From contig NZ_CP094357.1 in NCBI RefSeq assembly GCF_014779555.2, positions 434,001-498,000 of the forward strand: a DNA stretch of 64,000 nucleotides, read 5' to 3'. The notes below the pieces were generated by a model. It was not told the DNA's origin. It saw nothing but the letters and a program-made list of their open reading frames with translations, and ran no database searches. Made by a program: the position numbers and the translations under genes. This stretch comes from Lysobacter capsici (GTDB lineage: Bacteria > Pseudomonadota > Gammaproteobacteria > Xanthomonadales > Xanthomonadaceae). Shown piece by piece: positions 1 to 64,000 of this stretch (positions are counted from its first letter, which is position 1; the number at the start of each line of letters is the position of its first letter).

Positions 1-1
1 C

Positions 2-1240
2 GCCGAATCGATCGCCGACGTGGTGCACAGCATCGACTTCGCGCGTCGCCACGGTTTGCCGGTCAGCGTGCGCGGCAGCGGCCACAGCTACGCCGGCTGT
101 TTCCTGCGCAACACCGGCATCCTGCTGGACTTGTCGGCCTTGTGCGATATCCAGATCGATCCCGACCGACGATCGGCGCAGGTCCAGCCGGGCGTGAGCA
201 GCCGGCAGCTGAGCGCCGCGCTCGCCCGTCACGGCCTGGCCTTTCCGACCGGACACGGCGGCGAGGTCGGCCTGAGCGGGTTCTTGCTCGGCGGCGGGCT
301 CGGCATCAATTTCCGCGCCTGGGGCGGCATGAGCACGTTCAATGTTCGCGCGATCGATCTGGTGACCGCGGACGGCGAGGTGCTGCATGCCGATGCGCAC
401 GAAAACCCCGAACTGCTGTGGGCCGCGCGCGGCGGCGGACCCGGTTTGTTCTTCGTGGTGACCCGCTTCCATCTGGATTGCTGGCCGCTGCCGGGCTGCA
501 TCACCAGCAACACCTATTTGGCGAAGTTCAGCGACCTGCCGCGGTTGCTGGCGCGGATCGAACAGGCGCAGCCCGATCCTTCGTTGCAGGTGATGCTCGC
601 GATCGTGCCGAAGAGCGACGATCGCGCGGCCGAAGAATGCGGCCGGCAGGTGATGTTGAACACGATCGCGTTCGCCGACAGCCCGGCGCATGCGCGGGCG
701 CTGCAGGCCTCGCTGTCGGGGCAGGTGTCCGCCGGATTGATCCGCGCGGTCGAGGTCGACCAGCCGAGTGATTTCGAATCCATCTACCGCCAGGGCGACG
801 CGATGCTGGTGTCCAGGCGCTACCGCACCGACAACATCCTGACCGATCGAGGTGAGGACGCGGTCGCGATACTCGCTGCGCATCTGCCCTCGCAGCCTTC
901 GCCGGCCACATTGCCGCTGTTGATCTGGCGCGGCGCTTCGTCCTGGTCCGATGCGGCCTGGTCGGCATCGGGACGCTGGTTCTTTTCGACTTATGCGCAA
1001 TGGAATGAAGTCGCCGACGACGAGGTCAACCGCGGTTGGCTTAAATCCTTGTACGACGAGCTGGCGACGGTGGCGTCGGGCAGCTACATCAACGAGTTCG
1101 ATCTGGAGGAACGATCAGGCAGCGCACACCGGTGTTACTCCGCCGAGAGCTGGTCGCGCTTGCGCCGGCTGCGCAGGCAGTACGACCCTCACGGCGTGTT
1201 CCATGATGTGTCGATGGACATGTCGGCGGGCGATCGTTAG
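2..1240 (+). CDS. FAD-binding (BBE/PCMH-type) oxidoreductase, 5' partial
   Basis: The reading frame is open from the first bases, so the true start lies left of the window; a GTG at 20 is an internal codon. The visible protein (about 410 residues) has the PCMH FAD-domain core: RGSGHSYAG, whose His is where berberine-bridge enzymes carry the covalent 8-alpha-His-FAD, then FLLGGGLG and a WAARGGGPG stretch. It ends in the BBE C-terminal motif QYDPHGVFHD. The second flavin-linking Cys seen in bicovalent members appears absent: the segment after GGGLG reads MSTFNVRA. Family members oxidise alcohols, sugars or secondary metabolites; the substrate here cannot be inferred. The next gene is convergent. 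Confidence 0.85.
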   Translation, partial: AESIADVVHSIDFARRHGLPVSVRGSGHSYAGCFLRNTGILLDLSALCDIQIDPDRRSAQVQPGVSSRQLSAALARHGLAFPTGHGGEVGLSGFLLGGGLGINFRAWGGMSTFNVRAIDLVTADGEVLHADAHENPELLWAARGGGPGLFFVVTRFHLDCWPLPGCITSNTYLAKFSDLPRLLARIEQAQPDPSLQVMLAIVPKSDDRAAEECGRQVMLNTIAFADSPAHARALQASLSGQVSAGLIRAVEVDQPSDFESIYRQGDAMLVSRRYRTDNILTDRGEDAVAILAAHLPSQPSPATLPLLIWRGASSWSDAAWSASGRWFFSTYAQWNEVADDEVNRGWLKSLYDELATVASGSYINEFDLEERSGSAHRCYSAESWSRLRRLRRQYDPHGVFHDVSMDMSAGDR

Positions 1241-1394
1241 CCGCGAAGCGGCCCGGCGCAGGCCCGTCGGGTCGATGCCGATGAAGGCGCGGCCACGCAG
1301 CCGCGGCGGGCGAAGGATCGCTGCGATCTCGCCGGCGGGATCGTCATCGCGGCTCGGCCGTCGGCTGAGCCGCGGATCGCCGTCGACGGGAGCC

Positions 1395-2918
1395 TCACGC
1401 GGCCGATTGAAGCCCGCGATCGGCGCGCCGATAGCCGATCGCCTCGGTCAGATGCGCGGTGGCGATCGCCTCGCTGCCGGCCAGATCGGCGATGGTGCGG
1501 GCCACGCGCAGGATCCGGTGCATCGAGCGCGCAGACAGTTGCAGGCTTTCGACCGCGCGTTCGAGCAGTTCGTGATCGCGTTCGTGCAGGCGGCAGGTCG
1601 CGCTGGTCTCGGCCTGACTGAGCTGGGCGTTGATGCGGCCGCTGCGCGCTTGCTGCCGTTGCCGCGCCAGCACGACGCGGGCGCGGATGGCCTCGGAGCA
1701 TTCGCCGCCGGGCTGGTCCGGTCGCAGGTGCGAGGGCGGCAGGCGCGGCACCTCGATGTGCAGGTCGATGCGATCGAGCAAGGGACCGGAAATGCGCGCG
1801 CGGTAACGGCGGATGGCATCCCCGGCGCAACGGCAGCGGCCGCTGCTGTCGCCGGCCCAGCCGCAGGGGCAGGGGTTCATCGCCGCGACCAGCTGGAACC
1901 GCGCCGGGAACTCGGCGCTGCGCGCCGCGCGCGACACCGTCACCACGCCCGACTCCAGTGGTTCGCGCAGGACTTCCAATGCGCGCCGTTCCCACTCGGG
2001 CAATTCGTCGAGGAACAGCACGCCCTGATGGGCCAGGGAGATTTCGCCGGGGCGCGGGTCGGCGCCGCCGCCGACCAGGGCGACCGCGCTGGCGGTGTGG
2101 TGCGGCGATCGGAACGGGCGCTCGCGCCAGCGCGCCGGATCGAGTCCGCGCCCGTGCGCGCCGCCGCTGACCGAGGCGATCGCCGCGGTTTCCAGGGCTT
2201 CGGCTTCGCTGGCCTCGGGCAACAGGCCGGGCAGACGCGAGGCCAACAAGGTCTTGCCGCAGCCCGGCGGGCCGATCAGCAGCAGATGGTGGCCGCCGGC
2301 CGCGGCGATTTCGAGCGCGCGCCGCGCCTGCGCCTGGCCGCGCACGTCGAGCATGTCCGGCCCGGCGACGCGCACCACCGGCAAGGCGACGGCTTCGGGC
2401 AAAGACTTTTGCCCGCTGAGCATCGCGCACACTTCCAGCAAGGTGCGGCCGGTGCGCGCCTCGACCCGGCCGGCGAGGGCGGCTTCGGCGCCGTTGCCGG
2501 CCGGCACCACCAGCCGATGCCCGGCATCGGCCGCGGCCAGCGCCGCCGGCAGCACGCCGTCGATCGCGCGCAGTTCGCCGGTGAGGCCGAGTTCGCCGAG
2601 AAACTCGCAACCGTTCAAGGCCTCCAGCGGAATCTGTCCGCTCGCGGCGAGGATGCCGAGCGCGATTGCCAGGTCGTAGCGGCCGCCGTCCTTCGGCAGA
2701 TCGGCCGGAGCCAGATTGACGGTGATGCGCCGCTGCGGGAATTCGAACTGCGCGCACTGGATCGCCGCGCGCACCCGGTCCTTGGCTTCGCGCACCGCCG
2801 CTTCGGGCAGGCCGACGATCGACATGTTCGGCAAACCGCCGGCGAGATGGACCTCGACCCGCACCGCGGGCGCACGGACGCCCGATCGCGCACGGCTATG
2901 CACGAGTGCCAGATTCAT
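1395..2918 (-). CDS. comM: YifB/ComM family Mg-chelatase-like AAA+ ATPase
   Basis: This 507-residue protein matches the usual ComM length. The N-terminal ChlI/Lon-like domain (residues 1-120) contains GLPNMSIVGLPEAAVREAKDR. Walker A is GPPGCGKT at residues 216-223 and Walker B is GVLFLDELPE; the C-terminal part carries the Mg-chelatase lid domain. ComM is known as a hexameric helicase that promotes branch migration of integrating single-stranded DNA during natural transformation, so its presence fits competence-based recombination. The ATG lies just downstream of ubiK (stop at 2929, gap of 10 nt) on the same strand, so the two are probably co-transcribed. Confidence 0.93.
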   Translation of the reverse strand: MNLALVHSRARSGVRAPAVRVEVHLAGGLPNMSIVGLPEAAVREAKDRVRAAIQCAQFEFPQRRITVNLAPADLPKDGGRYDLAIALGILAASGQIPLEALNGCEFLGELGLTGELRAIDGVLPAALAAADAGHRLVVPAGNGAEAALAGRVEARTGRTLLEVCAMLSGQKSLPEAVALPVVRVAGPDMLDVRGQAQARRALEIAAAGGHHLLLIGPPGCGKTLLASRLPGLLPEASEAEALETAAIASVSGGAHGRGLDPARWRERPFRSPHHTASAVALVGGGADPRPGEISLAHQGVLFLDELPEWERRALEVLREPLESGVVTVSRAARSAEFPARFQLVAAMNPCPCGWAGDSSGRCRCAGDAIRRYRARISGPLLDRIDLHIEVPRLPPSHLRPDQPGGECSEAIRARVVLARQRQQARSGRINAQLSQAETSATCRLHERDHELLERAVESLQLSARSMHRILRVARTIADLAGSEAIATAHLTEAIGYRRADRGLQSAA

Positions 2919-2928
2919 GGCGGCCGGG

Positions 2929-3195
2929 TCAGTGCTGGGGCGTGTCGGCGCGATCGAGTTGCGCTTCGAGCTCGGCGACCGCGCGTTGCAGTTCGTCGAG
3001 CTTCTCGCGCGTGCGCAGCAGCACGGCGCGTTGGACTTCGAATTCCTCGCGGGTGACCAGGTCGAGCTTGGACAGCCCGGTCTGCAACACGGACTTGAAG
3101 TTCTGTTGCATTTCCTCGCGGCCTTCGCGCAGGCCCGAGGGCACCAGCGAGCTGAGGCGGCGGGCGAGGTCGTCGATGGTGTTCAGGTCGATCAT
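2929..3195 (-). CDS. ubiK: UbiK family ubiquinone biosynthesis accessory factor
   Basis: The 88-residue protein has the BMFP/YqiC architecture: a short amphipathic N-terminus (MIDLNTIDDLARRLSSLVP) followed by a C-terminal coiled coil with regular heptads (VQRAVLLRTREKLDELQRAV). UbiK trimers with UbiJ assist the aerobic Ubi complex at the lipid phase. A strong Shine-Dalgarno sequence, GAGGAG, sits 8 nt before the ATG. It precedes comM in the same direction. Confidence 0.88.
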   Translation of the reverse strand: MIDLNTIDDLARRLSSLVPSGLREGREEMQQNFKSVLQTGLSKLDLVTREEFEVQRAVLLRTREKLDELQRAVAELEAQLDRADTPQH

Positions 3196-3525
3196 GTAAA
3201 GAAGCTCCTCCGGTGTTGGGGTCAGCTTGACCGCCGGACCGGGACCACGCCGTCGGCTGGGGCCGTGGCGGGCTGTCGGAAAAGTCCGAAGTGGATGACG
3301 CGGTCACTACATCACGCCCTCGACCGGCCCTGCAAGCGCTCGGCTTGCACGCGTTCAGGTCTTCGGACGGCGTTGCATGATCGTCCAACGCCGGACGCGC
3401 AGGCGGTGTGAACGCCGCCGGACGGACGGCACGGCGGCCGCCGCGCCTGAGCCGCCGGCTAGGTCGCGGCGGCGGCGGCGCGCTATCCTGCGCGCGAATC
3501 GAATCGGTGGCGCGGAGACAGACGA
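3196..3525. other. Intergenic region between divergent ubiK and P-II gene
   Basis: This 330-nt stretch separates the leftward ubiK start from the rightward P-II start. It is GC-rich and should contain both promoters. I see no convincing -35/-10 pair, sigma-54 GG-N10-GC element, RNA gene or open frame with a ribosome site beyond the Shine-Dalgarno sequence of ubiK at its left edge. Confidence 0.5.
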
Positions 3526-3864
3526 ATGAAGATGGTCATGGCGGTGATCAAGCCGTTCAAGCTCGACGATGTGCGCGAGGCGCTGGCCGAGGCCGGCGTG
3601 GCCGGCATCACCGCCACCGAGGTCAAGGGCTTCGGCCGCCAGAAGGGGCATACCGAGTTGTATCGCGGCGCCGAGTACGTGGTCGACTTCCTGCCCAAGA
3701 TCAAGCTGGAAGTGGCGATCACCGACGATCAGATCGATACCGTGGTCGAGGCGATCATGAAGGCCGCCGGCACCGGCAAGATCGGCGACGGCAAGATCTT
3801 CGTCTGGGACCTGGAGCGCGCGGTGCGCATTCGCACTGGCGAGTTGGACGGCGACGCGCTTTAA
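3526..3864 (+). CDS. glnK: P-II family nitrogen regulatory protein (GlnK/GlnB)
   Basis: The protein has 112 residues, the exact P-II length. The T-loop sequence YRGAEYVVDFLP carries Tyr51, the site uridylylated by GlnD. GKIGDGKIFV is the C-terminal ATP/2-oxoglutarate signature and the tail is RTGELDGDAL. P-II trimers sense ATP/ADP and 2-oxoglutarate, and control glutamine synthetase adenylylation, NtrB and AmtB. The C-terminus resembles GlnK more than GlnB, but assignment between paralogues is not certain. No amtB follows; the next gene (LysR) is convergent and a palindromic repeat fills the gap. Confidence 0.92.
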   Translation: MKMVMAVIKPFKLDDVREALAEAGVAGITATEVKGFGRQKGHTELYRGAEYVVDFLPKIKLEVAITDDQIDTVVEAIMKAAGTGKIGDGKIFVWDLERAVRIRTGELDGDAL

Positions 3865-3874
3865 GGCGAGAAAA

Positions 3875-3964
3875 GAGTTCACAGGAGTGAGGAACGAGTC
3901 GAGCCGCATGGCTCGAGCGTTGCGCAGCTTTGCCGCTGAACTCGTTCCTCACTCCTGCGCACTC
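3875..3964. repeat. Palindromic repeat (family shared with 17278-17351)
   Basis: The left arm 3875-3899 (GAGTTCACAGGAGTGAGG then AACGAGT) is the reverse complement of 3940-3964 at 23 of 25 positions. A further partial arm copy follows to about 3977. It sits between the convergent P-II and LysR genes and could fold into a long hairpin. No T-tract follows, so a terminator role is uncertain. Nearly the same arms occur at 17278-17302 and 17327-17351, so this is a dispersed family. Confidence 0.75.
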
Positions 3965-3975
3965 GTTCCTCGCTT

Positions 3976-4872
3976 CTAAATTTCTTCGTCGAGCAAGAAC
4001 GCCTGCAACGCCGGCGCGCGCGGGCGATTGCGCAGTTCCAGCCGATACAGCGGGCGGGTCAGGCTCTCGTCGTCGCCCAGCGCGACCGCGCGCACGCGCT
4101 GCATGGTGATCAGGTCGGCGACCACGGTCGCCGGCAGCAGGGCGATGCCGGCGCCGGCGACCACGGCGCGCGCGATCGCTTCGTTGCTGCCGATCTCGAT
4201 CACCCGCGCCGGTTCGATGCCGCGCGCGGCGAACAGCGACTGCGCGACCTGGCGCGTGCCCGAGCCGTGTTCGCGCAGCAGCCAGGTCTGCCGGCTCAGT
4301 TCGGCGATCGAGGCGCGGCGCTTGGCGCCCACGGGGTTGTCGGTCGCGGCGATCAGCCGCAGCGGTTCGCTGCGCCACAAGCTCGCCTCGATGCGCGGGT
4401 CGTCGACCGAGCCTTCGACGAAGCCGACATCGACCGCGCAATCGATCACCGCATGGCGGATCTGTTCGGTGTTGCCGACCACCAGTTCGGTCGCCAGGGT
4501 GGGATGGCGACGCACGAACGGGCCCAGTTGCTGCGGCAGCCAATAGGCGGCGATGGTGGTGCTCGCGCCGATGCGCAGCCGGCCCTGACGCAGTTCGACC
4601 CGGTCGCGCACGTCTTCGACCGCGATCCGCTCCAGGGCGAAGATCGCGCGCGCATGTTCGAACACGGCGCGGCCGTGGTCGGTCAGCTGGATGCCGCGCA
4701 CGGCCTTGCCGTCGCTGCCGGTGCGCTCGATCAGCGGCAGGTCCAGCTGCAGCTCGAGTTCGCGCACCGCCTTGGACACCGCCGACTGGCTGACGAACAG
4801 GCTGTCGGCCGCGCGCGAGAAGCCTTGCTGCTCGACCACGGTCAGGAACACGCGCAGCAGGTGCAGGTTCAT
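3976..4872 (-). CDS. LysR-type transcriptional regulator, divergent from yeiH
   Basis: This 298-residue protein has an N-terminal winged helix (residues 1-60) with the LysR signature FLTVVEQQGFSRAADSLFVSQ then SAVSKAVRELE. A periplasmic-binding-protein-like effector domain follows from about residue 90. It is divergent from the YeiH-type transporter, the arrangement seen for YeiE/YeiH-like pairs, so it most likely regulates that gene. The start is supported by the Shine-Dalgarno sequence GAGGTGAG 7 nt upstream. That ribosome site lies inside the palindrome ATGAG-N5-CTCAT, which suggests possible autoregulation. The effector is unknown. Confidence 0.88.
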   Translation of the reverse strand: MNLHLLRVFLTVVEQQGFSRAADSLFVSQSAVSKAVRELELQLDLPLIERTGSDGKAVRGIQLTDHGRAVFEHARAIFALERIAVEDVRDRVELRQGRLRIGASTTIAAYWLPQQLGPFVRRHPTLATELVVGNTEQIRHAVIDCAVDVGFVEGSVDDPRIEASLWRSEPLRLIAATDNPVGAKRRASIAELSRQTWLLREHGSGTRQVAQSLFAARGIEPARVIEIGSNEAIARAVVAGAGIALLPATVVADLITMQRVRAVALGDDESLTRPLYRLELRNRPRAPALQAFLLDEEI

Positions 4873-4969
4873 GCTATGAGCTCACCTCATGGATAGTTGA
4901 ATTATATGTATTGGACTCCCCGAGTGGGCGGGCCTACCTTGGCGCCGCTTCCTCACCGAGTCCGCCGCC
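4873..4969. promoter_or_regulatory. Divergent lysR/yeiH control region with candidate LysR sites
   Basis: The 97-nt gap is AT-richer than its surroundings (ATAGTTGAATTATATGTAT at about 4892-4910), consistent with promoter elements. The palindrome ATGAG-N5-CTCAT at 4876-4890 overlaps the lysR ribosome site. LysR regulators usually bind T-N11-A sites in such gaps. The exact sites are inferred only. Confidence 0.5.
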
Positions 4970-6043
4970 GTGTCCGCCCTGAATCCGACTTCGTCCGTTC
5001 CCGTCGCCGCCCCGCAGGGTGCTCATCGGAAGCGCGGGTTCTGGCCGGGGCTGGGCCTGGCGGCCGCGATCGCCGCGGTGGCGATGGGGCTGGCCTCGCT
5101 GCCGGCGCTGCAATCCTTCGGTCTGAGCGCCCTGACCCTGGCCATCGTGCTCGGCATCGCGGTCGGCAACACGGTGTTCCCGGCCGTCGCCGCCCAGGCC
5201 GGCCCGGGCGTGGACTTCTGCAAGAGCACGCTGCTGCGCGCCGGCATCGTGCTGTACGGCTTTCGCGTCACCTTTCAGGAAATCGCCGGGGTCGGTTGGG
5301 CCGGGCTGGCGATCGACGTGGTGGTGGTGGCGACGGTGTTCGGTTTGGCGACCTGGATCGGCACGCGCTGGCTGAAGCTGGACCGCGAAACCTCGATGCT
5401 GATCGGCGCCGGCAGCGCGATCTGCGGCGCGGCCGCGGTCATGGCCACCGAACCGGTGGTGCGCGGACAGGCGCATAAGGTGTCGGTCGCGGTCGCCACG
5501 GTGGTGGTGTTCGGGACGCTCGGGATGTTCGTGTACCCGTGGCTGTATCCGTATCTGGGCATGAGCGAGCACGCGTATGGCGTGTATGCCGGCTCGACCA
5601 TCCACGAGGTCGCCCAGGTCGTGGTCGCCGGCCGCGCGATCGGCGAATCGGCCGCTTCGGCGGCGGTGATCGAGAAAATGCTGCGGGTGATGCTGCTGGC
5701 GCCGTTCCTGTTGATCCTGTCCTCGCGCATCGGCGCGAGCGGCGAGGGCGCCGCGGGCAAGGCGAAGATCGTGATCCCGTGGTTCGCGCTGTTGTTCGTG
5801 GTGGTCAGCGGGTTCAATTCGCTGCATCTGCTGCCGGCCGCGTGGAAGAGCGCGATCGTGCAGATCGACACGGTGATGCTGGCGATGGCGATGGCGGCGT
5901 TGGGCTTGCGCACGCATGTCGGCGCGATCAAGCAAGCCGGGGCGAAGCCGATGCTGCTGGCGGCGATCCTGTTCGGGGTGCTGACGATCGGCGGCTACGC
6001 ACTCAATGTCGGCGCGGCGAAGTTGTTCGCCGCCATCGGCTGA
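4970..6043 (+). CDS. yeiH: YeiH-type putative sulfate/anion exporter (UPF0324)
   Basis: The 357-residue integral membrane protein has about ten predicted helices and the UPF0324 motifs: KSTLLRAGIVLYGFRVTFQ, GAGSAICGAAAVMA, and AGSTIHEVAQVVVAG near residue 200. The family is annotated as putative sulfate exporters, with no firmly proven substrate. A GTG start at 4970 is used; its ribosome site is weak. The divergent LysR gene is the probable regulator. A rho-independent terminator follows at 6156-6187. Confidence 0.85.
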   Translation: MSALNPTSSVPVAAPQGAHRKRGFWPGLGLAAAIAAVAMGLASLPALQSFGLSALTLAIVLGIAVGNTVFPAVAAQAGPGVDFCKSTLLRAGIVLYGFRVTFQEIAGVGWAGLAIDVVVVATVFGLATWIGTRWLKLDRETSMLIGAGSAICGAAAVMATEPVVRGQAHKVSVAVATVVVFGTLGMFVYPWLYPYLGMSEHAYGVYAGSTIHEVAQVVVAGRAIGESAASAAVIEKMLRVMLLAPFLLILSSRIGASGEGAAGKAKIVIPWFALLFVVVSGFNSLHLLPAAWKSAIVQIDTVMLAMAMAALGLRTHVGAIKQAGAKPMLLAAILFGVLTIGGYALNVGAAKLFAAIG

Positions 6044-6155
6044 GCTGCACGAGCTCCCGCGTTCGCCGTGGCGCGACGCGCGCCTTCGGCACAACGAGTG
6101 TGCAATGGTCATGAGTACTCGCTCGCGGCCTGCGCCCCTGCCACTGCCGGATCGC

Positions 6156-6187
6156 GAAAAACCCCGCCGATCGCGGGGTTTTTTCTT
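6156..6187 (+). terminator. Rho-independent terminator
   Basis: The hairpin AAAACCCCGC / GCGGGGTTTT with a short CGAT loop is followed by a T-rich run. It lies about 115 nt after the yeiH stop. Confidence 0.85.
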
Positions 6188-6529
6188 GTCTGCCCGGCGC
6201 TTGGGCGATCAACGTCACGATGCGGGCGAGCGCGCGCCCGGTGCACGCCACTGCGATGGGCTGTTGTTGCTCGCATGTCGCCTGCGCATCGCAGCGCCGA
6301 TATGCCGATGTGTGATTCGTATCGCGTTTAAGCGAGGAATGCGCCACTTGCGCGGCCCACCGCGGCCGGGCGCTTGCGTGCAAGCTCAAGGCCGTTCTTC
6401 GCTGCGGCCGAATTCTTCCGCGATCGCGCCATCGCGCGCGGCGACCCACGAGCAGGCGATGAACGCTACCGGGCGACCGCGGTCGTCCGCCATCACTCTT
6501 GATGTCGCAACGCTTACGGGGAGAGTCAC
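6188..6529. other. Intergenic leader of the metalloprotease gene
   Basis: About 340 nt lie between the yeiH terminator and the protease start. Only the ribosome site GGGGAG just before 6530 is convincing. Open frames across it lack coding character. The protease promoter presumably lies here. Confidence 0.4.
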
Positions 6530-7810
6530 ATGCACAAGGCAATCTTGGCACTATCCATCGCGGGTCTGGTCACCGCCACCGTCAACATCGCCGGCGCGCA
6601 ATCGGCCGCGGTGCCGGAACTGTTTCAGGCCCAGCCCTCGAAGGCCGCGGCGCCCGCGAACGTCAGCGCCATGGTGCGCGGCAAGACCGCGCTATGGGCC
6701 GCGTCGGTGTCGATCGATCGCCAGGCCCTGGTCGGCGCGCAGCGCGAATTGATGCTGAGCATGCCGGAGGGCGCGCGTCTGCACATGCGTCTGGCGAAGT
6801 CCTATCGCACCGCCAACGGCGATACGGTCTGGTCGGGCGCCGACCGCCTGCTTCCCGGCGGCCAGCTCAAGCTCGGCGGCCAACCGCCGTCCACGGCGCT
6901 GTTCGTCGTGCGCGGCGAGCGCGTCACCGGGCAGATCGTCGCCGCCACCGGCGAGGTGTACGAGGTCCTGACCTCGGAGGACGGCGCGCGGCAGTACCTG
7001 GTCAAGCGCGATCCTGCGAGTCTGGAGGGTGGGGACGATACGCCCGCGCAGGTCGATCTGGCGCCGCAAACCGATCGCGGCCCCGCGCTCGCCGCGCGTC
7101 CGGCGGCGGGCGCGCTGCTCGCCGATTCGATCGTCCGCGTGCTGCAGGTCTACACGCCGGAAGCCGTGGCCGAACTGGGCGGGCAGAATTCGGCGAACGA
7201 TCGCGCCGCGTTCTTCATCGCCCAATCCAATACCGCGTTCACCAACAACGCGCTGGCGCTGCGGTTCGAAAGCGCCGGAGTCCGCTTCACCACCCAGGCG
7301 CAATCGACCGACAGTTCCGACACCCTGCTGTCGCGCATCCGCGGCACCACCGACGGCTGGTACGACGCCTACTCGACCACCGAGCGCAACAGCACGGCCG
7401 CCGACCTGGTGACCCTGGTGGTACGCGACGGCCTGGTGAGCAGCAGCGGCGGACTGCTGTGCGGGCAGGCGTATTCGATCGGCGCGACCGCGGCCAACGG
7501 CTTCTTCGTGCAGAACCATTCCTGCAGCACGTTCACCTTCGTGCATGAGGCGGCCCATCTGTTCGGCGCGCGTCACGACAACGATCCGAACACCACGCCG
7601 TTCTCGTTCGGTCACGGTTACGTCAACAGCGCCGGCAATTTCCGCACGATCATGGCGGTGAACTCGAATCCGCAGCCGCGCATCGGCTACTTCTCGACGA
7701 TCGACCAGAGCTACGTGTCCGGCGGCGTGAGCCGGCCGCTGGGCACCAGCACCCGCGACAACGAGCGGGTCATGCGCGAGCGCGCGGCGGCGGTCGCGGC
7801 GTTCCGCTGA
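6530..7810 (+). CDS. Secreted zinc metalloprotease (metzincin, reprolysin-like/M72-like)
   Basis: The 426-residue protein begins with a Sec signal peptide (MHKAILALSIAGLVTATVNIAGA, cleavage predicted after about residue 23). A propeptide-like region follows to about residue 200. The catalytic domain carries the extended metzincin zinc motif HEAAHLFGARH at residues 339-349 (H339, E340, H343, H349) and a Met-turn at RTIMAV (M375). The layout resembles peptidyl-Asp metallopeptidases (M72) and other reprolysin-like bacterial enzymes. It is probably an exported protein-degrading enzyme, as expected in a predatory or lytic Lysobacter. A GGGGAG ribosome site supports the start. Exact cleavage specificity cannot be read. 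Confidence 0.88.
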   Translation: MHKAILALSIAGLVTATVNIAGAQSAAVPELFQAQPSKAAAPANVSAMVRGKTALWAASVSIDRQALVGAQRELMLSMPEGARLHMRLAKSYRTANGDTVWSGADRLLPGGQLKLGGQPPSTALFVVRGERVTGQIVAATGEVYEVLTSEDGARQYLVKRDPASLEGGDDTPAQVDLAPQTDRGPALAARPAAGALLADSIVRVLQVYTPEAVAELGGQNSANDRAAFFIAQSNTAFTNNALALRFESAGVRFTTQAQSTDSSDTLLSRIRGTTDGWYDAYSTTERNSTAADLVTLVVRDGLVSSSGGLLCGQAYSIGATAANGFFVQNHSCSTFTFVHEAAHLFGARHDNDPNTTPFSFGHGYVNSAGNFRTIMAVNSNPQPRIGYFSTIDQSYVSGGVSRPLGTSTRDNERVMRERAAAVAAFR

Positions 7811-7884
7811 CGGCGGCGCGGTTGCGGCGGCCGAGGGGCGTTGCCCCGAGGCCGCCAACTCGCGCGGTCGTTCGGATTCTCCCT

Positions 7885-7967
7885 GTAGGAGCTGCGCAAG
7901 CTGCGACCGCGAAACGGCGCTTGCGTCGTAGCTGCGGTTTCGCGGTCGCAGCTTACGCAGCTCCTAC
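7885..7967. repeat. REP pair (BIME), GTAG type
   Basis: GTAGGAGCTGCGCAAGCTGC at 7885 is mirrored by its complement ending in CTCCTAC at 7967, with about 20 nt between the two REP units. It lies in the gap between the protease and convergent speE. Confidence 0.85.
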
Positions 7968-7979
7968 CGTCGTACTACG

Positions 7980-8009
7980 AAAAAGCCCCGCGAGTGCGGG
8001 GCTTTTTTT
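7980..8009. terminator. Bidirectional terminator between protease and speE
   Basis: The stem AAAAGCCCCGC / GCGGGGCTTTT has loop GAGT and a T-run on the + side and an A-run on the other. It lies 21 nt from the speE stop, so it can serve both convergent genes. Confidence 0.85.
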
Positions 8010-8029
8010 CGGCGAAGATCGCGGACGGT

Positions 8030-8884
8030 TTATTCGCCCAACGCCTGCGCCACGAACGCCGGCGTCGACAACGCGCCGTGGTGGATGCCTGCGTTGTAGT
8101 ACTTGCTGTCGAAGGTCTTGGCCTTGGCGTCGGCTTCGCGGAATTCGAAACCGCCGGCGCTCTTGCGCGCCAGAGTGCAGCTCCACCAGCCGGTCGGGTA
8201 GCACGGCTGCGGGAACGGCAGGGTCTTGAACGACTGGAAGCCGGCCTTGCCCATCTCGGTGCGCATTTCCTGGATCAGCTTGAGCAGCATCAACGGCGAC
8301 TCGGACTGCTGGACCAGGATGCCGTCCTCGCGCAACGCGCGGAAGCAGCTTTCGTAGAAGGCCTTGTTGAACAGGCCCTCGGCCGGGCCGACCGGATCGG
8401 TCGAGTCGACGATGATGATGTCGACGCTGCCGGCCGGGCGGTTGGCCATGTAGGCGATGCCGTCGTCGAACAACAGCTGCGCGCGCGCGTCGCCGTTGCG
8501 GTCGCACAATTCCGGGAACCACTTCTCGGCCATGCGCGTGACCTGCTCGTCGATGTCGCACTGCACCGCCTCGACCACGCCGTCGTGCTTGAGCACTTCG
8601 CGCAGGGTGCCGCAGTCGCCGCCGCCGATGATGACCACGTTCTTGGGCGCGGCATGGGTGAACAGCGCCGGGTGCGACATCATCTCGTGATAGAGGAAGT
8701 TGTCGCGGGTGGTCAGCATGACCGCGCCGTCGATCAGCATCAGATTGCCCCAGTCGGTCGTCTCGAAGATCTCGATCTTCTGGAACGGCGACTGCACTTC
8801 ATCGAGCTTGCGGGTGATCCGATAGCCGATGGACGAGCCGGTCGGCTCGAAGTTTTCGTAATGCCACTTCGGTTCGGTAGTCAT
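8030..8884 (-). CDS. speE: Spermidine synthase (polyamine aminopropyltransferase)
   Basis: From the start MTTEPKWHYENFEP the protein has 284 residues, close to the family's usual length; the frame stays open upstream but that extension looks non-coding. Motifs include the SAM-type fold GGGDCGTLREVLKH, the catalytic DSTDPVGPAEGLF loop and QSESPLM. SpeE transfers an aminopropyl group from decarboxylated S-adenosylmethionine to putrescine. It is divergent from arginine decarboxylase speA, so this 3-kb block covers two steps of polyamine synthesis. No agmatine-processing gene is in the window. Confidence 0.95.
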   Translation of the reverse strand: MTTEPKWHYENFEPTGSSIGYRITRKLDEVQSPFQKIEIFETTDWGNLMLIDGAVMLTTRDNFLYHEMMSHPALFTHAAPKNVVIIGGGDCGTLREVLKHDGVVEAVQCDIDEQVTRMAEKWFPELCDRNGDARAQLLFDDGIAYMANRPAGSVDIIIVDSTDPVGPAEGLFNKAFYESCFRALREDGILVQQSESPLMLLKLIQEMRTEMGKAGFQSFKTLPFPQPCYPTGWWSCTLARKSAGGFEFREADAKAKTFDSKYYNAGIHHGALSTPAFVAQALGE

Positions 8885-9165
8885 GCGCTTGCTTCCTGGG
8901 CTGGGGCGGGAATCGCGGGGCTGCGTCCGATCGCGGCGGCGGCGGGCCCGATCGCCGGGCCGGAGCCGGGCACGATCCGGGCTTGGGGCGCGGATTGTAG
9001 CGAACCTGCATGAACGTACGTCGCGAACGGCCCGCCCGGCCGCGGATTTTGCCGACTTGGCCGCCAGCGTCGCGCGCTTGGCCAAGTCGAGCCGGATCGA
9101 AGGCCCCCTCGCCGGACGCGGCCTGTAGAATGCGGCTTCCCCATGGTTTTCTGGAAAGCCCGCCG

Positions 9166-58808: not shown

Positions 58809-58845
58809 TGTCCGCGACCGGCCGGGCGATGGCCGTCGCTTCGAC

Positions 58846-59919
58846 TCAGGGCCGCAGTTCGAACAAGGCCGGCAGCGGCGGCCGATCGGAAGGCACCTTG
58901 CGCACGCGGCTGAAGCCGGCTTTCGCGGCCATGTCGCGGGCGCGGGTCTCGCCCATGAACGCGCCGAGCCCGGCGCCACCGTGCGACAGCGAACAGGTCA
59001 TGCAGTACAGCGTGCTCTGCGGATACATCACCCGGCCGAACAGATTCATGTTCTCGTGCAGTTCCTCGGACAGGTTGAGCTCGACCATGAGGTAGGTGCC
59101 GTCCTCGGCGGTCGAGCTGCGCAGGTCCGTCATCATCTGCTGCGGATCGGCGGCGTCGTGGATCACCACGAAGGTGGTCACGAAATCGAACTTCTTGCCC
59201 AGCAGCGCATCGGAATCGGCGACCTCGAAGCGCACCCGATCGCCGAGCCCCGCGGCATGCGCGTTGGCGCGCGCGCGTTCGATCGAGGGAAGGTGGAAGT
59301 CGCAGCCCAGGACGGTGGCCTTCGGAAACGCCTGGGCCATGGTGATCGCGGCCAGACCGCTGCCGCATCCGAAATCGAGCACGCTGCCGCCGGCTTCGAG
59401 CTTTTCCTTGACTCCGGTCAGCGACGGGATCCAGTGCTGGACGAGAAAGTGCTTGTACCAGGGCATGGTCATGCGCTCCATGCCTTGCCAGGTTTCGACC
59501 GGGTAGGCCTCTTCCGGCGCGCCGCCGCCGTGGCGGAAGGCCTCGATGATCCGCGGCGCCATCGACACGAACGGCACGCTCAGCTGGATGATGCCGCCGG
59601 CGAAGTAGGGCGAGTCCTCGTCGGCCAGCACCGGGACGAACTCGTCGGGCAGGCGATAACGCTTGCTGTGGCGGTCGTAGGTCACGTAGTCGCCGGTCGC
59701 CATGCTGCCGAGCCATTCGCGCAGATAACGCGCGTTGAGTCCGGTGTGGCGGGTCAGTTCCTCCAGCGTCACCGCGCCGGTCTGGGCCAGGGCCTTGAAC
59801 AGGCCCAATTGGTCGCCGATATAAAGCATGGCGCCGCGCAGCGTGTTGCCGTAATCCTCCATGATGCGCGCGGAAAACTGCTGGACCTTGGCCGGATCGG
59901 CTTCGATGCTCACTGACAT
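58846..59919 (-). CDS. SAM-dependent methyltransferase of a fluopsin-like pathway
   Basis: From MSVSIEADPAKVQQFSARI the protein has 357 residues. An N-terminal winged-helix/dimerisation domain (20-110; GLFKALAQTGAVTLEELTRH) precedes a class I Rossmann domain with SAM motif SVLDFGCGSGLAAITMA and acidic motif [16 protein letters not shown] ribosome site supports the start. It is last in a leftward operon with two lyases and a haem-oxygenase-like iron enzyme, the enzyme set of fluopsin C synthesis, where a methyltransferase supplies the N-methyl group of the thiohydroxamate. That role is inferred from context; the domain alone says only small-molecule methyltransferase. Confidence 0.85.
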   Translation of the reverse strand: MSVSIEADPAKVQQFSARIMEDYGNTLRGAMLYIGDQLGLFKALAQTGAVTLEELTRHTGLNARYLREWLGSMATGDYVTYDRHSKRYRLPDEFVPVLADEDSPYFAGGIIQLSVPFVSMAPRIIEAFRHGGGAPEEAYPVETWQGMERMTMPWYKHFLVQHWIPSLTGVKEKLEAGGSVLDFGCGSGLAAITMAQAFPKATVLGCDFHLPSIERARANAHAAGLGDRVRFEVADSDALLGKKFDFVTTFVVIHDAADPQQMMTDLRSSTAEDGTYLMVELNLSEELHENMNLFGRVMYPQSTLYCMTCSLSHGGAGLGAFMGETRARDMAAKAGFSRVRKVPSDRPPLPALFELRP

Positions 59920-60005
59920 TCCTTTCTCCCGATGAGTGGTGCGGCGGCTTGTGATTGGCGCTGGTGATCGCGGCTGATGAATTCGCGCCTGGTGAATCGG
60001 ATGCC

Positions 60006-61463
60006 TCAGAAACGACGGTTGCCGACCTGGGTCAGTACGTCGTCGACGATGGTTTCGGCCATGCCAAGATGGGTCCTGGGTTCGAACAGGCGCGCGAGCT
60101 TTCCCCCGTCCACGGCGGCGAGCACCCTGGGATCGCACTCGACCGCCTCGCGGATCGACACCCGATCGCGCTGACAGGCCTGGGTGAGTTCGAAGATGAT
60201 TTCGTAGGCGCTGCTTTTGCCGAGCGTCTTCGCCATCTCGAACACGAACGCTTCCATGCAGATCGCATCGCCGTAGGCGTGCGCGTTGCGGTCCATCGCC
60301 GCGTCGTTGACGGTGAGCTTGCCGATCGTGTCGCTGAGCAAGGCCAGCGCGGTCAGCGCGTAATGGGAGACATCGGCGACCGCGCACCACTCCAGACGGG
60401 TTCCGCGGTAGTCGCGTTCGTGCTCGAGGATCATCGCGTCCAGCGCGAGCACGACCTGCGCCTTGGCCAGGCGGGCCATCACCACCACCTGCTCGCAACC
60501 TTCCGGATTGCGCTTGTGCGGCATCGTGCTGCTGCCGATCTGCTGGTCCGACCAGCCCACTTCGACCTCGGCGATCTCCCAGCGATTCAAGGTGCGGATC
60601 TCGTCGGCCACCCGCGCCAGCGACGCGGTCATCATCGCCAGCGCGCTGACGAATTCGGCGACGCGGTCGCGCGCCACGTGCCAGCCAGCGTGCGGCACGC
60701 CGAGACACAGCCGGCGCGCGAACACGTTCAGCAGCGCCATGGCGTCGGGGCCGAACGCGGCCATCGTGCCGACCCCGCCGAACAGCTGCACCACGAGCAC
60801 GCGCTGGCGCGCCTGGCCGAGGCGATCGCGATGACGCAACAACTCGTCGATCCAGCCGGCCACTTTCAGACCGAAGGTGGTGGGCAAGGCCGGTATCGAA
60901 TGGGTCCGGGCGACCATCAGCGAGCCGCGGTGCGCATTCGCCAGCGCCGCGAGCTGCGCGATCAATGCATCGAGCGCGACGTCGACGCTGTCGAGCACGT
61001 CGCGCATCTCCAGCGACTGCGCGGTGTCCTGGATGTCCTGGGTGGTCGCGCCGTAGTGAACGTACTCGCGCGCGCTCGGACTGCAGTTGTCCTGCAACGC
61101 GCGCAGCAGCGGCATCAGCGAGTGCCCGGTCTTGCTCACGCCGTCGGCGATCTGGTCCAGATTCATCGCCGACAATTTCGCGCTGCGCTGGATTTCCAGC
61201 GCGGCCTGCAGCGGGATCATATGGACTTCCGCCTGCGCCATCGCCAGCACCGATTCGACGTCGAGCCAGCGCTGCAGCCGACATCGGCCGCAGAAGATCG
61301 CCCGGCTCGCGGCGCCGGCGTAGCCGCCACCATGCACCTTCGAATCCAGAATGTGGCTGTGTTCGTGCCGGCAGTCGTCGACCAGCGCCGGCTCGCTCAC
61401 CGAACAGCTTCGGCGCGCGGCGAACGCAGGATGCGGCGTCACGTTCAAGGTCTGTGGTTCCAT
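60006..61463 (-). CDS. Aspartase/fumarase-superfamily lyase, fluopsin-like pathway (lyase 1)
   Basis: The 485-residue protein is of the adenylosuccinate-lyase type. Conserved regions are HYGATTQDIQDTAQS (C2 region), ARTHSIPALPTTFG and the superfamily signature GSSTMPHKRNP at 310-320 with the catalytic loop Ser. It has an N-terminal extension of about 40 residues compared with lyase 2, with clustered Cys/His (DDCRHEHSH, FCGRCRLQ). In fluopsin C synthesis, lyases add and later remove fumarate on the cysteine-derived thiol; one such step is the inferred role. It is not housekeeping PurB, given the context and the paired paralogue. A GGAGGGT ribosome site lies upstream of ATG 61463. Confidence 0.85.
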   Translation of the reverse strand: MEPQTLNVTPHPAFAARRSCSVSEPALVDDCRHEHSHILDSKVHGGGYAGAASRAIFCGRCRLQRWLDVESVLAMAQAEVHMIPLQAALEIQRSAKLSAMNLDQIADGVSKTGHSLMPLLRALQDNCSPSAREYVHYGATTQDIQDTAQSLEMRDVLDSVDVALDALIAQLAALANAHRGSLMVARTHSIPALPTTFGLKVAGWIDELLRHRDRLGQARQRVLVVQLFGGVGTMAAFGPDAMALLNVFARRLCLGVPHAGWHVARDRVAEFVSALAMMTASLARVADEIRTLNRWEIAEVEVGWSDQQIGSSTMPHKRNPEGCEQVVVMARLAKAQVVLALDAMILEHERDYRGTRLEWCAVADVSHYALTALALLSDTIGKLTVNDAAMDRNAHAYGDAICMEAFVFEMAKTLGKSSAYEIIFELTQACQRDRVSIREAVECDPRVLAAVDGGKLARLFEPRTHLGMAETIVDDVLTQVGNRRF

Positions 61464-61521
61464 CGCATACCCTCCATCCAAGAATGGGCTGACTGGAAAC
61501 TCTTCGGGTGATGTCGCCCGC

Positions 61522-62892
61522 TCAGGATCGGCCGCGCGGCTGGCCGGTCGCGTAGCATGCGACCCGGTCGACCATCTCCACGGCCAGTCCCGCATAGGTG
61601 ACCGGATCGAGCAGATCTTCGAGCGCCTGAGGCGTGAAGCTGCCGCGCAGGCGCTCGTCCTTGAGCAAGGCGTCGCGGAACGGAACATCTTGCCGGCGAG
61701 CCTCCATGGATATTTCATGCACCAGTTCGTGCGCGGTCTGCTTGCCGAATCGACCGCCCAGCGCGAGCATCACCCGCTCGGACAGAATCAACCCGCCGAG
61801 CAGATCGAGGTTGTCGCGCATGCGCTGCTCGCGTACGTCCAGGCCAGTCGCCAACATTTCGTCCATGCGCGCGAGCAGCGCGCCGGTGTAGACGAACAGT
61901 TCGGGCAACGCGGCCCATTCGATCCGCCAGGCCGTGCCGTCGCGTTCGTGCAGGTGGAACGCGGCATCGGTGAGCGCGACCATCTGCGCCCGGATCAGGC
62001 GCGACAGCGCGCTGATCAGATCCGCGGTCGACGGGTTCTGCTTGTGCGGCATGGTGCTGCTGCCGATCTTGCCCGGCGCGTTGCCTTCGCGGACCTCGTC
62101 GACTTCGGTTCGCTGCAGGTGATAAATCTCGTTGGCGATCCGCCCGAACGTGACCGCGCACTGGACCAGCAGCCCGCCGACTTCCAGGATCCGATCGCGC
62201 ACCGAATGCCAGCTGGTGCGCGGAGCGCCGAGCCCGAGGCTGGCCAAGGTGCGCCGCTGGATCTCGAATCCCTGCGCGCCGAACGAGGCCATGGTGCCGA
62301 CCGCGCCGGTGAGGTTGCCCACCATCACCCGCGCGCGCGCCTCGTCGAAGCGTTGCAGATGCCGGTCGATCTCGTCGACCCAGACCGCGACCTTGTAGCC
62401 GAAGGTGGTGGGCAGCGCGTGCTGGCCGTGAGTGCGCGCGACCATCGGCGTGCGCCGGTGCTTGCGCGCCAATGCGAGCAAGTGAGCCTGGATCGAACGC
62501 AGCCGCGCCAGCGCGAGCTCCCACGCTTCGGCGATCTGCAGCACCAGCCCGGTGTCGAGGATGTCCTGGGTGGTCACGCCGTAGTGAACGTATTCGCCCC
62601 AGCCGTCCTGACAGCGTTCGGCCAGCGCCCAGATCGTCGGAATCAGAATGTGCCCGGTTTCGCGGCTCTCCCGGCCCAGCCGCTCCAGATCGAACAGCTC
62701 CACATGAGTACGGCGCGCGATTTCCTGCGCCGCTTCATGCGGGATCAGGCCCATCTGCGCCTGGGTCAGCGCGAGCGCGCGTTCGACGTCGAGCCACTTC
62801 TGCACCTGATTGCCATCGCAGAAGATCGCCGCGAACTCGGGATCGGAGTAGACGCCCCCGTAAATGCGCGATTCGGTCACGTGGCTCGGCAT
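61522..62892 (-). CDS. Aspartase/fumarase-superfamily lyase, fluopsin-like pathway (lyase 2)
   Basis: The 456-residue protein contains RIYGGVYSDPEFAAIFCDG, HYGVTTQDILDTGLVLQ, ARTHGQHALPTTFG and GSSTMPHKQNP at 277-287. It is clearly paralogous to lyase 1 (shared order and spacing of motifs) but closer to the standard superfamily form. Its start overlaps the stop of the upstream iron-enzyme gene by 16 nt, indicating translational coupling. The likely partner substrate is an S-succinyl-cysteine-type intermediate, by analogy with fluopsin C synthesis. Confidence 0.86.
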   Translation of the reverse strand: MPSHVTESRIYGGVYSDPEFAAIFCDGNQVQKWLDVERALALTQAQMGLIPHEAAQEIARRTHVELFDLERLGRESRETGHILIPTIWALAERCQDGWGEYVHYGVTTQDILDTGLVLQIAEAWELALARLRSIQAHLLALARKHRRTPMVARTHGQHALPTTFGYKVAVWVDEIDRHLQRFDEARARVMVGNLTGAVGTMASFGAQGFEIQRRTLASLGLGAPRTSWHSVRDRILEVGGLLVQCAVTFGRIANEIYHLQRTEVDEVREGNAPGKIGSSTMPHKQNPSTADLISALSRLIRAQMVALTDAAFHLHERDGTAWRIEWAALPELFVYTGALLARMDEMLATGLDVREQRMRDNLDLLGGLILSERVMLALGGRFGKQTAHELVHEISMEARRQDVPFRDALLKDERLRGSFTPQALEDLLDPVTYAGLAVEMVDRVACYATGQPRGRS

Positions 62893-63935
62893 GATCGCTG
62901 ATCCGCCTGGTTGGCTGGCCGCTTGGCTGCCGGGCTGAAGGACGGCCCCGTCACGTCCTGCATTTCCGCCCAGACCGCGTCGTAGTACGCACGCTCGACC
63001 CGGAAATGCTGCGCGAGCGAGGTCAGGAACGATTTCTGGAACGCCGGATCGGGAATGCGCCGCGCGATCAGCTGCCACTCGCGCTTGGCGCGCGGCGGCA
63101 CCAGGCTGACGTGGATCTTGTAGTACTCGGCGGCGTCTTCGCTGAGGCCGGCCTGGAGCAGCGCGTTGTAGAGCTTTTCGTGATTGCCCGGGACGACGAT
63201 TTCGGTGATGTAGAACACCGCCAGGCCCCAACCCACGTCCGGATTGCGGAAGCTGCGCACGCGGTTGTTCAAGTACGCGATTTCCTCGGGCATCGTGCTG
63301 ACGGCTTGGAAGTCGGCTTCCAGATCGACGGCATCGAGCAGCTTGGCCAACAGTCGCGGATGCGAGCGGACCTCGTCCTCCTCGCCGAGTTCTCCGTGCA
63401 GGTAGCGGCCGAGCGCCGCGGCGTCGTCCACGTCGACCAGGTTCACCAGCAGGTCCGCGGCTTCGCGGTACAGGCGGAAGGTGCGGAACCATTGCCGCCG
63501 CAGGAACACCCGCAGCTGCGCGGGCGAGGCGCAGCCTTCGAAGATGTACTGCGACATGGGGTGCTTCTCGCGCGAGCGCGACGACACCTCCTGTTCTATC
63601 CGCGCCAGGAACTCGGCTTCCGACAAGGCCGTGGGCACGTCCGCGGCGGGAATGAAACGTTCCTCGACCCGATACGCCCAGTTGCACAGCCAGCGGCGCG
63701 CGAGCGCGGTGGCGGTGTCGTCGCTCAACGACAGGATGTACAGCAGCGTCTGGTACTCGGTCTGGCTGTCGGTATGGCCGTTGAGCGCGCTTTCGGCGAG
63801 CTCGGACAAGGTCTTGGCCGCGGTTTCCAGATGGGCGAACGAGGCGCCCGGTTCCAGCGCGCGGGCGAGAATGCGCGCGCGGTTGGTCTGAAGGGCTTCG
63901 AGCTGTGGCAGGGAATGATTGCGGGTGTTCGACAT
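62877..63935 (-). CDS. Haem-oxygenase-like iron-dependent oxidase (HDO) of a fluopsin-like pathway
   Basis: The 352-residue all-helical protein has an N-terminal domain of about 115 residues and a C-terminal HDO domain. Candidate metal ligands are Glu182 and His192 (GELGEEDEVRSH), Glu245 (FYITEIVVPGNHEK) and His275 (YYKIHVSLVPPR). HDO enzymes use a non-haem di-iron site for N-oxidation, decarboxylation or C-C cleavage. Fluopsin C synthesis uses two iron-dependent enzymes of this kind. Residues expected as the last two ligands (H-x3-D-x2-H) are Val279 and Arg282 here. AAAGGAG precedes the ATG. It overlaps lyase 2. Confidence 0.85.
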   Translation of the reverse strand: MSNTRNHSLPQLEALQTNRARILARALEPGASFAHLETAAKTLSELAESALNGHTDSQTEYQTLLYILSLSDDTATALARRWLCNWAYRVEERFIPAADVPTALSEAEFLARIEQEVSSRSREKHPMSQYIFEGCASPAQLRVFLRRQWFRTFRLYREAADLLVNLVDVDDAAALGRYLHGELGEEDEVRSHPRLLAKLLDAVDLEADFQAVSTMPEEIAYLNNRVRSFRNPDVGWGLAVFYITEIVVPGNHEKLYNALLQAGLSEDAAEYYKIHVSLVPPRAKREWQLIARRIPDPAFQKSFLTSLAQHFRVERAYYDAVWAEMQDVTGPSFSPAAKRPANQADQRSCRAT

Positions 63936-63970
63936 GCGCGCTCCTTTGCAGGCACGGTGAGGAATCGGGC

Positions 63971-64000
63971 TTAGTGGATGTGCTGTCCCTGCATCTGTCG
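63971..64000 (-). CDS. C-terminal end of a further operon gene (partial)
   Basis: On the minus strand the last codons before the right edge read RQMQGQHIH followed by TAA (63971-63973), 35 nt upstream of the HDO start. Spacing fits an operon neighbour, and the second iron enzyme of the pathway would be the expected occupant. Nine residues are too few to identify it. Confidence 0.35.
   Translation of the reverse strand, partial: RQMQGQHIH

Follow-up and report, generated by a model that had tools for sequence, protein, structure and literature searches.

The stretch of DNA analyzed here, hereafter the window, comprises 64,000 nucleotides of Lysobacter capsici (bases 434001-498000 of its 6.24 Mb chromosome), and our subject is a leftward operon at its right end that resembles the gene cluster for fluopsin C, a copper thiohydroxamate antibiotic. 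An earlier note on this DNA had described an HDO-type iron enzyme, two aspartase/fumarase-superfamily lyases, and an S-adenosylmethionine (SAM)-dependent methyltransferase in a tight or coupled arrangement, with one more gene entering from the right edge, and it had predicted that a fifth enzyme would lie just outside. All of these genes were located on the minus strand, and the fifth enzyme foreseen in the note is encoded directly to the right of the window: it is another HDO enzyme, 339 amino acids (aa) long. Its gene has a stop codon at 63971 and places only its last 30 bases in the window, the remainder being read from the genome. Names follow the order E-D-C-B-A of the fluopsin C genes, which we take the leftward Lysobacter order flcE-D-C-B-A to follow, and start codons were chosen by comparison with relatives. 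Positions beyond 64000 continue the window numbering.

58846..59919, minus strand: flcA, SAM-dependent methyltransferase; Pfam methyltransferase domains; 83% identity to Pseudomonas aeruginosa PA7 over 357 aa
60006..61463, minus strand: flcB-position lyase, aspartase/fumarase superfamily, GSSTMPHKRNP; Pfam Lyase_1 and ADSL_C; 74% identity to PA7; name FlcB from gene order only
61522..62892, minus strand: flcC-position lyase, aspartase/fumarase superfamily, GSSTMPHKQNP; Pfam Lyase_1 and ADSL_C; 75% identity to PA7; name FlcC from gene order only
62877..63935, minus strand: flcD, HDO enzyme; Pfam HOASN and Haem_oxygenas_2; 72% identity to PA7; E = 9e-155 to PDB 3bjd
63971..64000 in the window, continuing to 64990, minus strand: flcE, first HDO enzyme, 3' end in the window; L006:5972-6991 in our numbering of the locus; 339 aa; Pfam HOASN and Haem_oxygenas_2; 76% identity to PA7 over 313 aa
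65208-65468, outside the window, same strand: yhs, upstream of flcE
65465-65863, outside the window, same strand: merR, upstream of flcE
65911-65932, outside the window: operator, upstream of merR

The five enzymes of the operon

The genes are closely packed, with a 16-base overlap between the flcC-position lyase and flcD and gaps of 35, 58, and 86 bases elsewhere, and the operon has a G+C content of 66.1% against 66.2-67.0% in its surroundings. Two HDO enzymes, two superfamily lyases, and one SAM methyltransferase are co-located, which is the combination that marks a fluopsin C cluster, and the five-gene order was identical in all 12 loci compared (eight from Lysobacter and four from Pseudomonas). 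This shared order, together with the 72-83% identity of all five proteins to the PA7 set, bears out the fluopsin C-like assignment that the earlier note had made. The HDO enzyme encoded entirely within the window matches the solved P. aeruginosa FlcD beyond chance (E = 9e-155 to 3bjd and 7e-154 to 8w1q; 72% identity). According to PMC11363339, FlcD carries an E-H-E-H-V-R iron motif that was strongly predicted in only one of 150 groups surveyed, and nine of its pocket residues were mutated. The motif, which is that of a mononuclear iron site, and the pocket residues are conserved at 15 of 15 positions in the L. capsici protein, where the FlcD residue numbering carries a +1 offset inferred from the motif spacing. 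Judged by these comparisons, the enzymes belong to the already known fluopsin C pathway.

A head shared with merR-copA copper-efflux operons

Upstream of flcE and on the same strand, all eight Lysobacter flc loci have a MerR-family gene, and no such gene was found before flcE in the four Pseudomonas loci. The merR promoter carries TTGACYCTGGACYATGGTCCAG in all eight. With up to 2 mismatches allowed, each of the eight flc-bearing genomes has a single occurrence of this operator, in L. capsici only upstream of merR and at no place within the 64-kb window, while a reversed control pattern gave no occurrence in 20 genomes. A search for a copper-responsive promoter upstream of the operon, as proposed in the earlier note, has therefore turned up a copper-type regulatory site of a type unlike that of Pseudomonas, its response being a prediction. 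Between merR and flcE, each of the eight loci also encodes a small YHS domain, a metal-binding module of the copper type, and Pfam PF04945 recognized it in the two clades tested (34.9 bits in L. capsici and 41.4 bits in the fused protein of genome G157; cutoff, 30.3). In three genomes, including L. capsici, the domain stands alone as a protein of 85-86 aa, with a 4-base overlap between its ATG and the merR stop codon, while in the other five it is in frame with merR, giving a single MerR-YHS protein of 212-217 aa. The join of the fused form keeps an ATG behind a purine-rich stretch, and therefore separate synthesis of the YHS portion would be possible.

Five Lysobacter genomes that lack flc carry the same operator heading an orthologous merR (63-66% identity). 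There, merR overlaps by the same 4 bases the gene of a copper ATPase (787-793 aa) that begins with the YHS domain. The one YHS-ATPase tested scored 569 bits with a copper-translocating model (cutoff, 397) and also passed a cadmium-family model (394 versus 313.5). With up to 1 mismatch, the operator was found in 47 of 247 genomes of the family. It occupies 45 places outside Lysobacter, 21 of which were examined; counting among the matches listed in a noisy tblastx synteny table, 19 have this MerR, 18 of them also the start of a YHS-CopA, and two have neither nearby. When the ATPase of genome G217 was used as a query against the eight flc loci, only its first ~74 residues matched, apart from a few short hits at E > 1. 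The eight flc regulators form one clade (100/98) among the copA-linked MerRs, apart from four CueR-like genes and adjoining a MerR from another genus (83/86).

Because the same operator, MerR, and YHS domain head a copper ATPase in relatives, we propose that the flc genes occupy the position of the ATPase body behind a borrowed copper-efflux switch. The regulator, operator, and YHS domain would then descend from a merR-copA operon of the YHS-type P1B copper ATPases of the Lysobacteraceae, its head having been taken over by flc. The flc loci differ from those operons in that they lack the ATPase body and have flcEDCBA instead, and in the fusion of the YHS domain to MerR in five of eight cases. 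As the flc MerR clade adjoins the MerR of another genus, the head was perhaps assembled outside Lysobacter and arrived together with flc. All eight flc-bearing genomes have another CopA (46-47% identity among the matches listed), which in L. capsici lies beside a CueR-like gene; such a CopA is present in 15 of the 20 genomes, and in the five merR-YHS-copA genomes the YHS-CopA is the sole CopA found at E 1e-60. In other genera of the family (L087, L100, L101, and L102), two or three tandem YHS domains occur in some of the YHS-CopA proteins encoded behind the same operator, so the number of YHS domains was already variable in this operon type.

Movement of the cassette and its distribution

Insertion sites were assessed by blastn comparison of the flanks. 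In L. capsici the edges lie at window positions 58817 and 66282. The flanks of this site are 109 and 187 bases apart in G641 and G642, both without flc, and 64 bases apart in G241, which carries flc elsewhere; in G217 the left flank alone was matched and the right one was not found, making that genome uninformative on the empty site. A divergent MOSC/YiiM-type gene stands beside merR in L. capsici (L006:8057-8980), and this gene belongs to the insertion flank, because in G641, G241, and G642 its DNA lies next to the empty site. The clade of G241 and G644 instead carries the cassette upstream of a gene pair that we presume to be zapB/zapA-like. That second site is empty in L. capsici, G641, and G217, where its flanks are 194, 167, and 99 bases apart, respectively. 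The two cassettes are homologous over window 58842-65938, which reaches from the flcA end up to the promoter of merR, with an interruption in the yhs-flcE gap. With two chromosomal sites, each empty in genomes without the cassette there, the comparison indicates that a cassette of roughly 7 kb moved as a unit between them. Terminal repeats were sought at its ends and rejected, as no word of 9 bases is common to the two ends in the L. capsici locus and none of 10 bases in L044. No transposase was recognized by eye in the lists of open reading frames, for which no dedicated search was run. Spread via plasmids was likewise rejected, since a plasmid collection contained no FlcD match at E 1e-5.

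Both FlcD and FlcE were found in eight of the 20 Lysobacter genomes searched, and two further genomes gave weak HDO matches only. Among 247 genomes sampled from the family, 10 had a match at E <= 0.001, strong in four, all of them Lysobacter; a phylum sample of 398 genomes added two others with weak matches, and in a class sample of 369 genomes only L. capsici itself passed E 1e-40. It should be noted that these three samples may share genomes. When named genomes were scanned for two FlcD peptide patterns, an approach that could miss more distant relatives, the hits were four Pseudomonas (including P. aeruginosa PA7) and Lysobacter sp. Root690. In the trees, the Lysobacter FlcE proteins form one clade (100/99), and the FlcD proteins fall on one side with weak support (53/23). 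The literature searched, outside which the 2021 Science paper on fluopsin lies, contained nothing linking fluopsin or a copper thiohydroxamate antibiotic to Lysobacter.

Weighing the function of the operon head

Taken jointly, we assign a probability of roughly 0.8 to the reading that the five genes are a complete fluopsin C operon, flcEDCBA, preceded by a head from merR-copA, controlled by copper, and moved as a cassette. Several observations weigh against it. FlcB and FlcC are distinguished solely by gene order. The regulator passed no metal equivalog cutoff (118.1 bits versus 147.4 for CueR, TIGR02044, and 120 versus 150.85 for MerR), and because of the former score we do not file it as a CueR. 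A gene-free gap of 216-414 bases separates the yhs stop codon from the flcE ATG. Lastly, the flanks of the merR-copA and merR-yhs-flc loci differ in the noisy tblastx comparison, such that an in-place swap of copA for flc is not shown, and as a swap at a single locus we reject it.

The most serious alternative concerns yhs, which might be a decaying remnant without function. It is, after all, a short piece of a larger gene, and its ratio of nonsynonymous to synonymous substitution rates (dN/dS) is 0.35-0.52 between clades and 0.20-0.90 within clade B, the highest value coming from one close pair. The corresponding values within clade A are 0.18-0.28, and selection on yhs appears to be mostly purifying, in a gene too short for a firm statement. 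Against decay, the reading frame is open and Pfam-recognizable in both clades tested, the cysteines of CC..C, DPxCGM, and FCSAxC are retained in all eight loci, and five of the eight have the in-frame fusion to MerR. Therefore, we consider a functionless remnant unlikely, albeit the most credible of the alternatives. A comparable case is an adenylyl cyclase of Mycobacterium phlei, whose C-terminal YHS domain is argued in PMC4626032 to be a copper sensor. The MerR-YHS protein also carries its YHS domain at the C-terminus of a signaling protein, which in Lysobacter is a DNA-binding regulator known from its sequence, and by analogy the fusion could represent a similar copper-sensor design in a transcription regulator.

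Probable copper control of flc in two genera

The fluopsin C cluster flcABCDE of P. aeruginosa, which we take to be PA3515-PA3519, has the same five enzymes in the same order, with the FlcD iron motif and pocket residues in common. Its Lysobacter counterpart, known from the genes alone, is headed by merR-yhs with its own operator, whereas a CueR-like box immediately precedes flcE in all four Pseudomonas loci (identified by eye, with chance matches uncounted). Lysobacter flc also does not adjoin the genes that neighbor flc in Pseudomonas, which are RND (resistance-nodulation-division) pump genes and a copZ-like gene in four of four loci (both named by eye) and copA in three of four. In these Pseudomonas loci (L023, L024, L025, and L026, about 1-9000), flc is situated within a copper-stress island. 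PA3515-3519 have been reported to be under CueR (PMC7922089 and PMC12833586), and a MerR-family metal regulator at the promoter before the flc genes is likewise predicted for Lysobacter. However, CueR is encoded elsewhere in the chromosome and uses another operator, whereas the Lysobacter regulator gene is inside the cassette. Thus, flc seems to be wired to copper in both genera, using different parts.

The Lysobacter regulator keeps two cysteines in its metal loop, CPGHGAVERC, and has Met at the position of CueR Ser77, as aligned to CueR (1q05) and to the mercuric resistance regulator 5crl, which has Cys there. Since Cys at this position broadens the CueR/GolS response to divalent metals, as reported in PMC7911910, the two loop cysteines without a Cys at the Ser77 position, as in monovalent sensors, favor a monovalent metal. 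In the proposed mechanism, the MerR-family regulator, whose gene heads the operon, would bind excess cytoplasmic Cu(I) and then switch on one promoter for merR-yhs-flcEDCBA, presumably read as a single transcript, and copper would be expected to induce flc in Lysobacter. It could instead be argued that the regulator senses silver, gold, mercury, or zinc, or that it controls merR and yhs only and flc is driven by a separate promoter within the gap. The missed equivalog cutoffs leave room for another metal, as do the closest PDB structures (4ua1, then CueR), and the 216-414 bases before flcE, with their conserved leader stretch, leave room for a promoter. On the other hand, the relatives of the regulator head a copper ATPase, the third cysteine of divalent sensors is replaced by Met, and no sigma-70-type promoter or minus-strand terminator was found in the yhs-flcE gap of L006. 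Another metal or a separate flc promoter is consequently improbable in our estimation, and we retain copper control from the merR promoter.

The leader of flcE has features of its own. A GGCGCG...CGCGCC inverted repeat (L006:6992-7110, and the same place in the seven other Lysobacter loci) is retained amid divergent sequence, apart from one altered pair in L043 and a different one in L044. It is a candidate RNA element. Degenerate short repeats occupy much of the longer yhs-flcE gap in L029 and L042, both from genomes with the fused regulator. A known Rfam family at the merR operator was rejected, as two 3 kb loci centered upon it (L045 and L054) gave no match up to E 1.

Predicted chemistry and product

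The fluopsin C pathway is described in PMC11363339, including the excision of the oxime carbon by P. aeruginosa FlcD, and the reactions of the two lyases are given in PMC13411527. By homology, FlcB would join cysteine and fumarate, FlcE would decarboxylate and hydroxylate the product to an oxime, FlcD would remove one carbon, FlcC would release fumarate and the thiohydroxamate, and FlcA would methylate the nitrogen, after which one copper ion would be bound by two ligands. Accepting this scheme, Lysobacter is predicted to produce fluopsin C, and the cluster would fit a predatory lifestyle. True Flc orthologs might nevertheless serve a different end, making another thiohydroxamate or a ligand that mainly traps copper rather than acting as an antibiotic. 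No export or self-protection genes were recognized by eye beside the Lysobacter operon, whereas in the Pseudomonas loci an efflux pump neighbors flc. Still, the 72-83% identity of all five enzymes and the retained FlcD pocket residues argue for fluopsin C itself, and we regard a different product or use as a distinctly remote prospect.

A housekeeping role of the lyases in purine or arginine metabolism, in an operon other than flc, is rejected as scarcely credible even though NCBIfam scores both above its cutoff for an adenylosuccinate lyase subfamily, and the one at the flcC position above the purB cutoff too, because they share 74-75% identity and gene order with the PA7 lyases versus 23-36% identity with the three other superfamily members found in their own genome, and because the FlcD match and its specific motif already contradict it. 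By identity and gene order, the grouping with FlcB and FlcC rather than PurB/ArgH anticipated in the earlier note holds. In the lyase tree, where the three housekeeping sequences sit on very long branches, FlcB forms one group (98/99) and FlcC falls on one side with low support (37/75). Given the NCBIfam scores, automatic annotation may conceal flc clusters under a purine-enzyme name (window 60006-62892).

Implications for Lysobacter

What is new in Lysobacter is the arrangement: the operon has a head presumably taken from a copper-efflux operon, including a YHS piece that is fused to MerR in some genomes, and it occupies two chromosomal sites, each of which is empty elsewhere in the genus. 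A further-reaching proposal, which we hold tentatively and at less than even odds, is that of a mobile copper-to-antibiotic module, whose flcEDCBA genes acquired their promoter, their sensor, and an N-terminal metal domain from the operon of a copper-efflux ATPase. Excess copper would then be built into an antibiotic besides being exported by the other CopA, and the freed YHS domain would carry copper to the site of fluopsin assembly or, where fused to MerR (five of eight), act as a second copper sensor in a new type of regulator. Copper delivery to a ligand and to a promoter could be studied on two concrete objects, the YHS protein in its free form and its fusion to MerR. The same enzymes wired to copper in two ways in two genera make testable the notion of fluopsin as both copper defense and weapon. 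A rare copper-antibiotic pathway is extended to a genus of soil bacteria, with eight genomes in which to search for the compound, and if the copper switch drives the fluopsin set, these bacteria might turn excess copper into a weapon.

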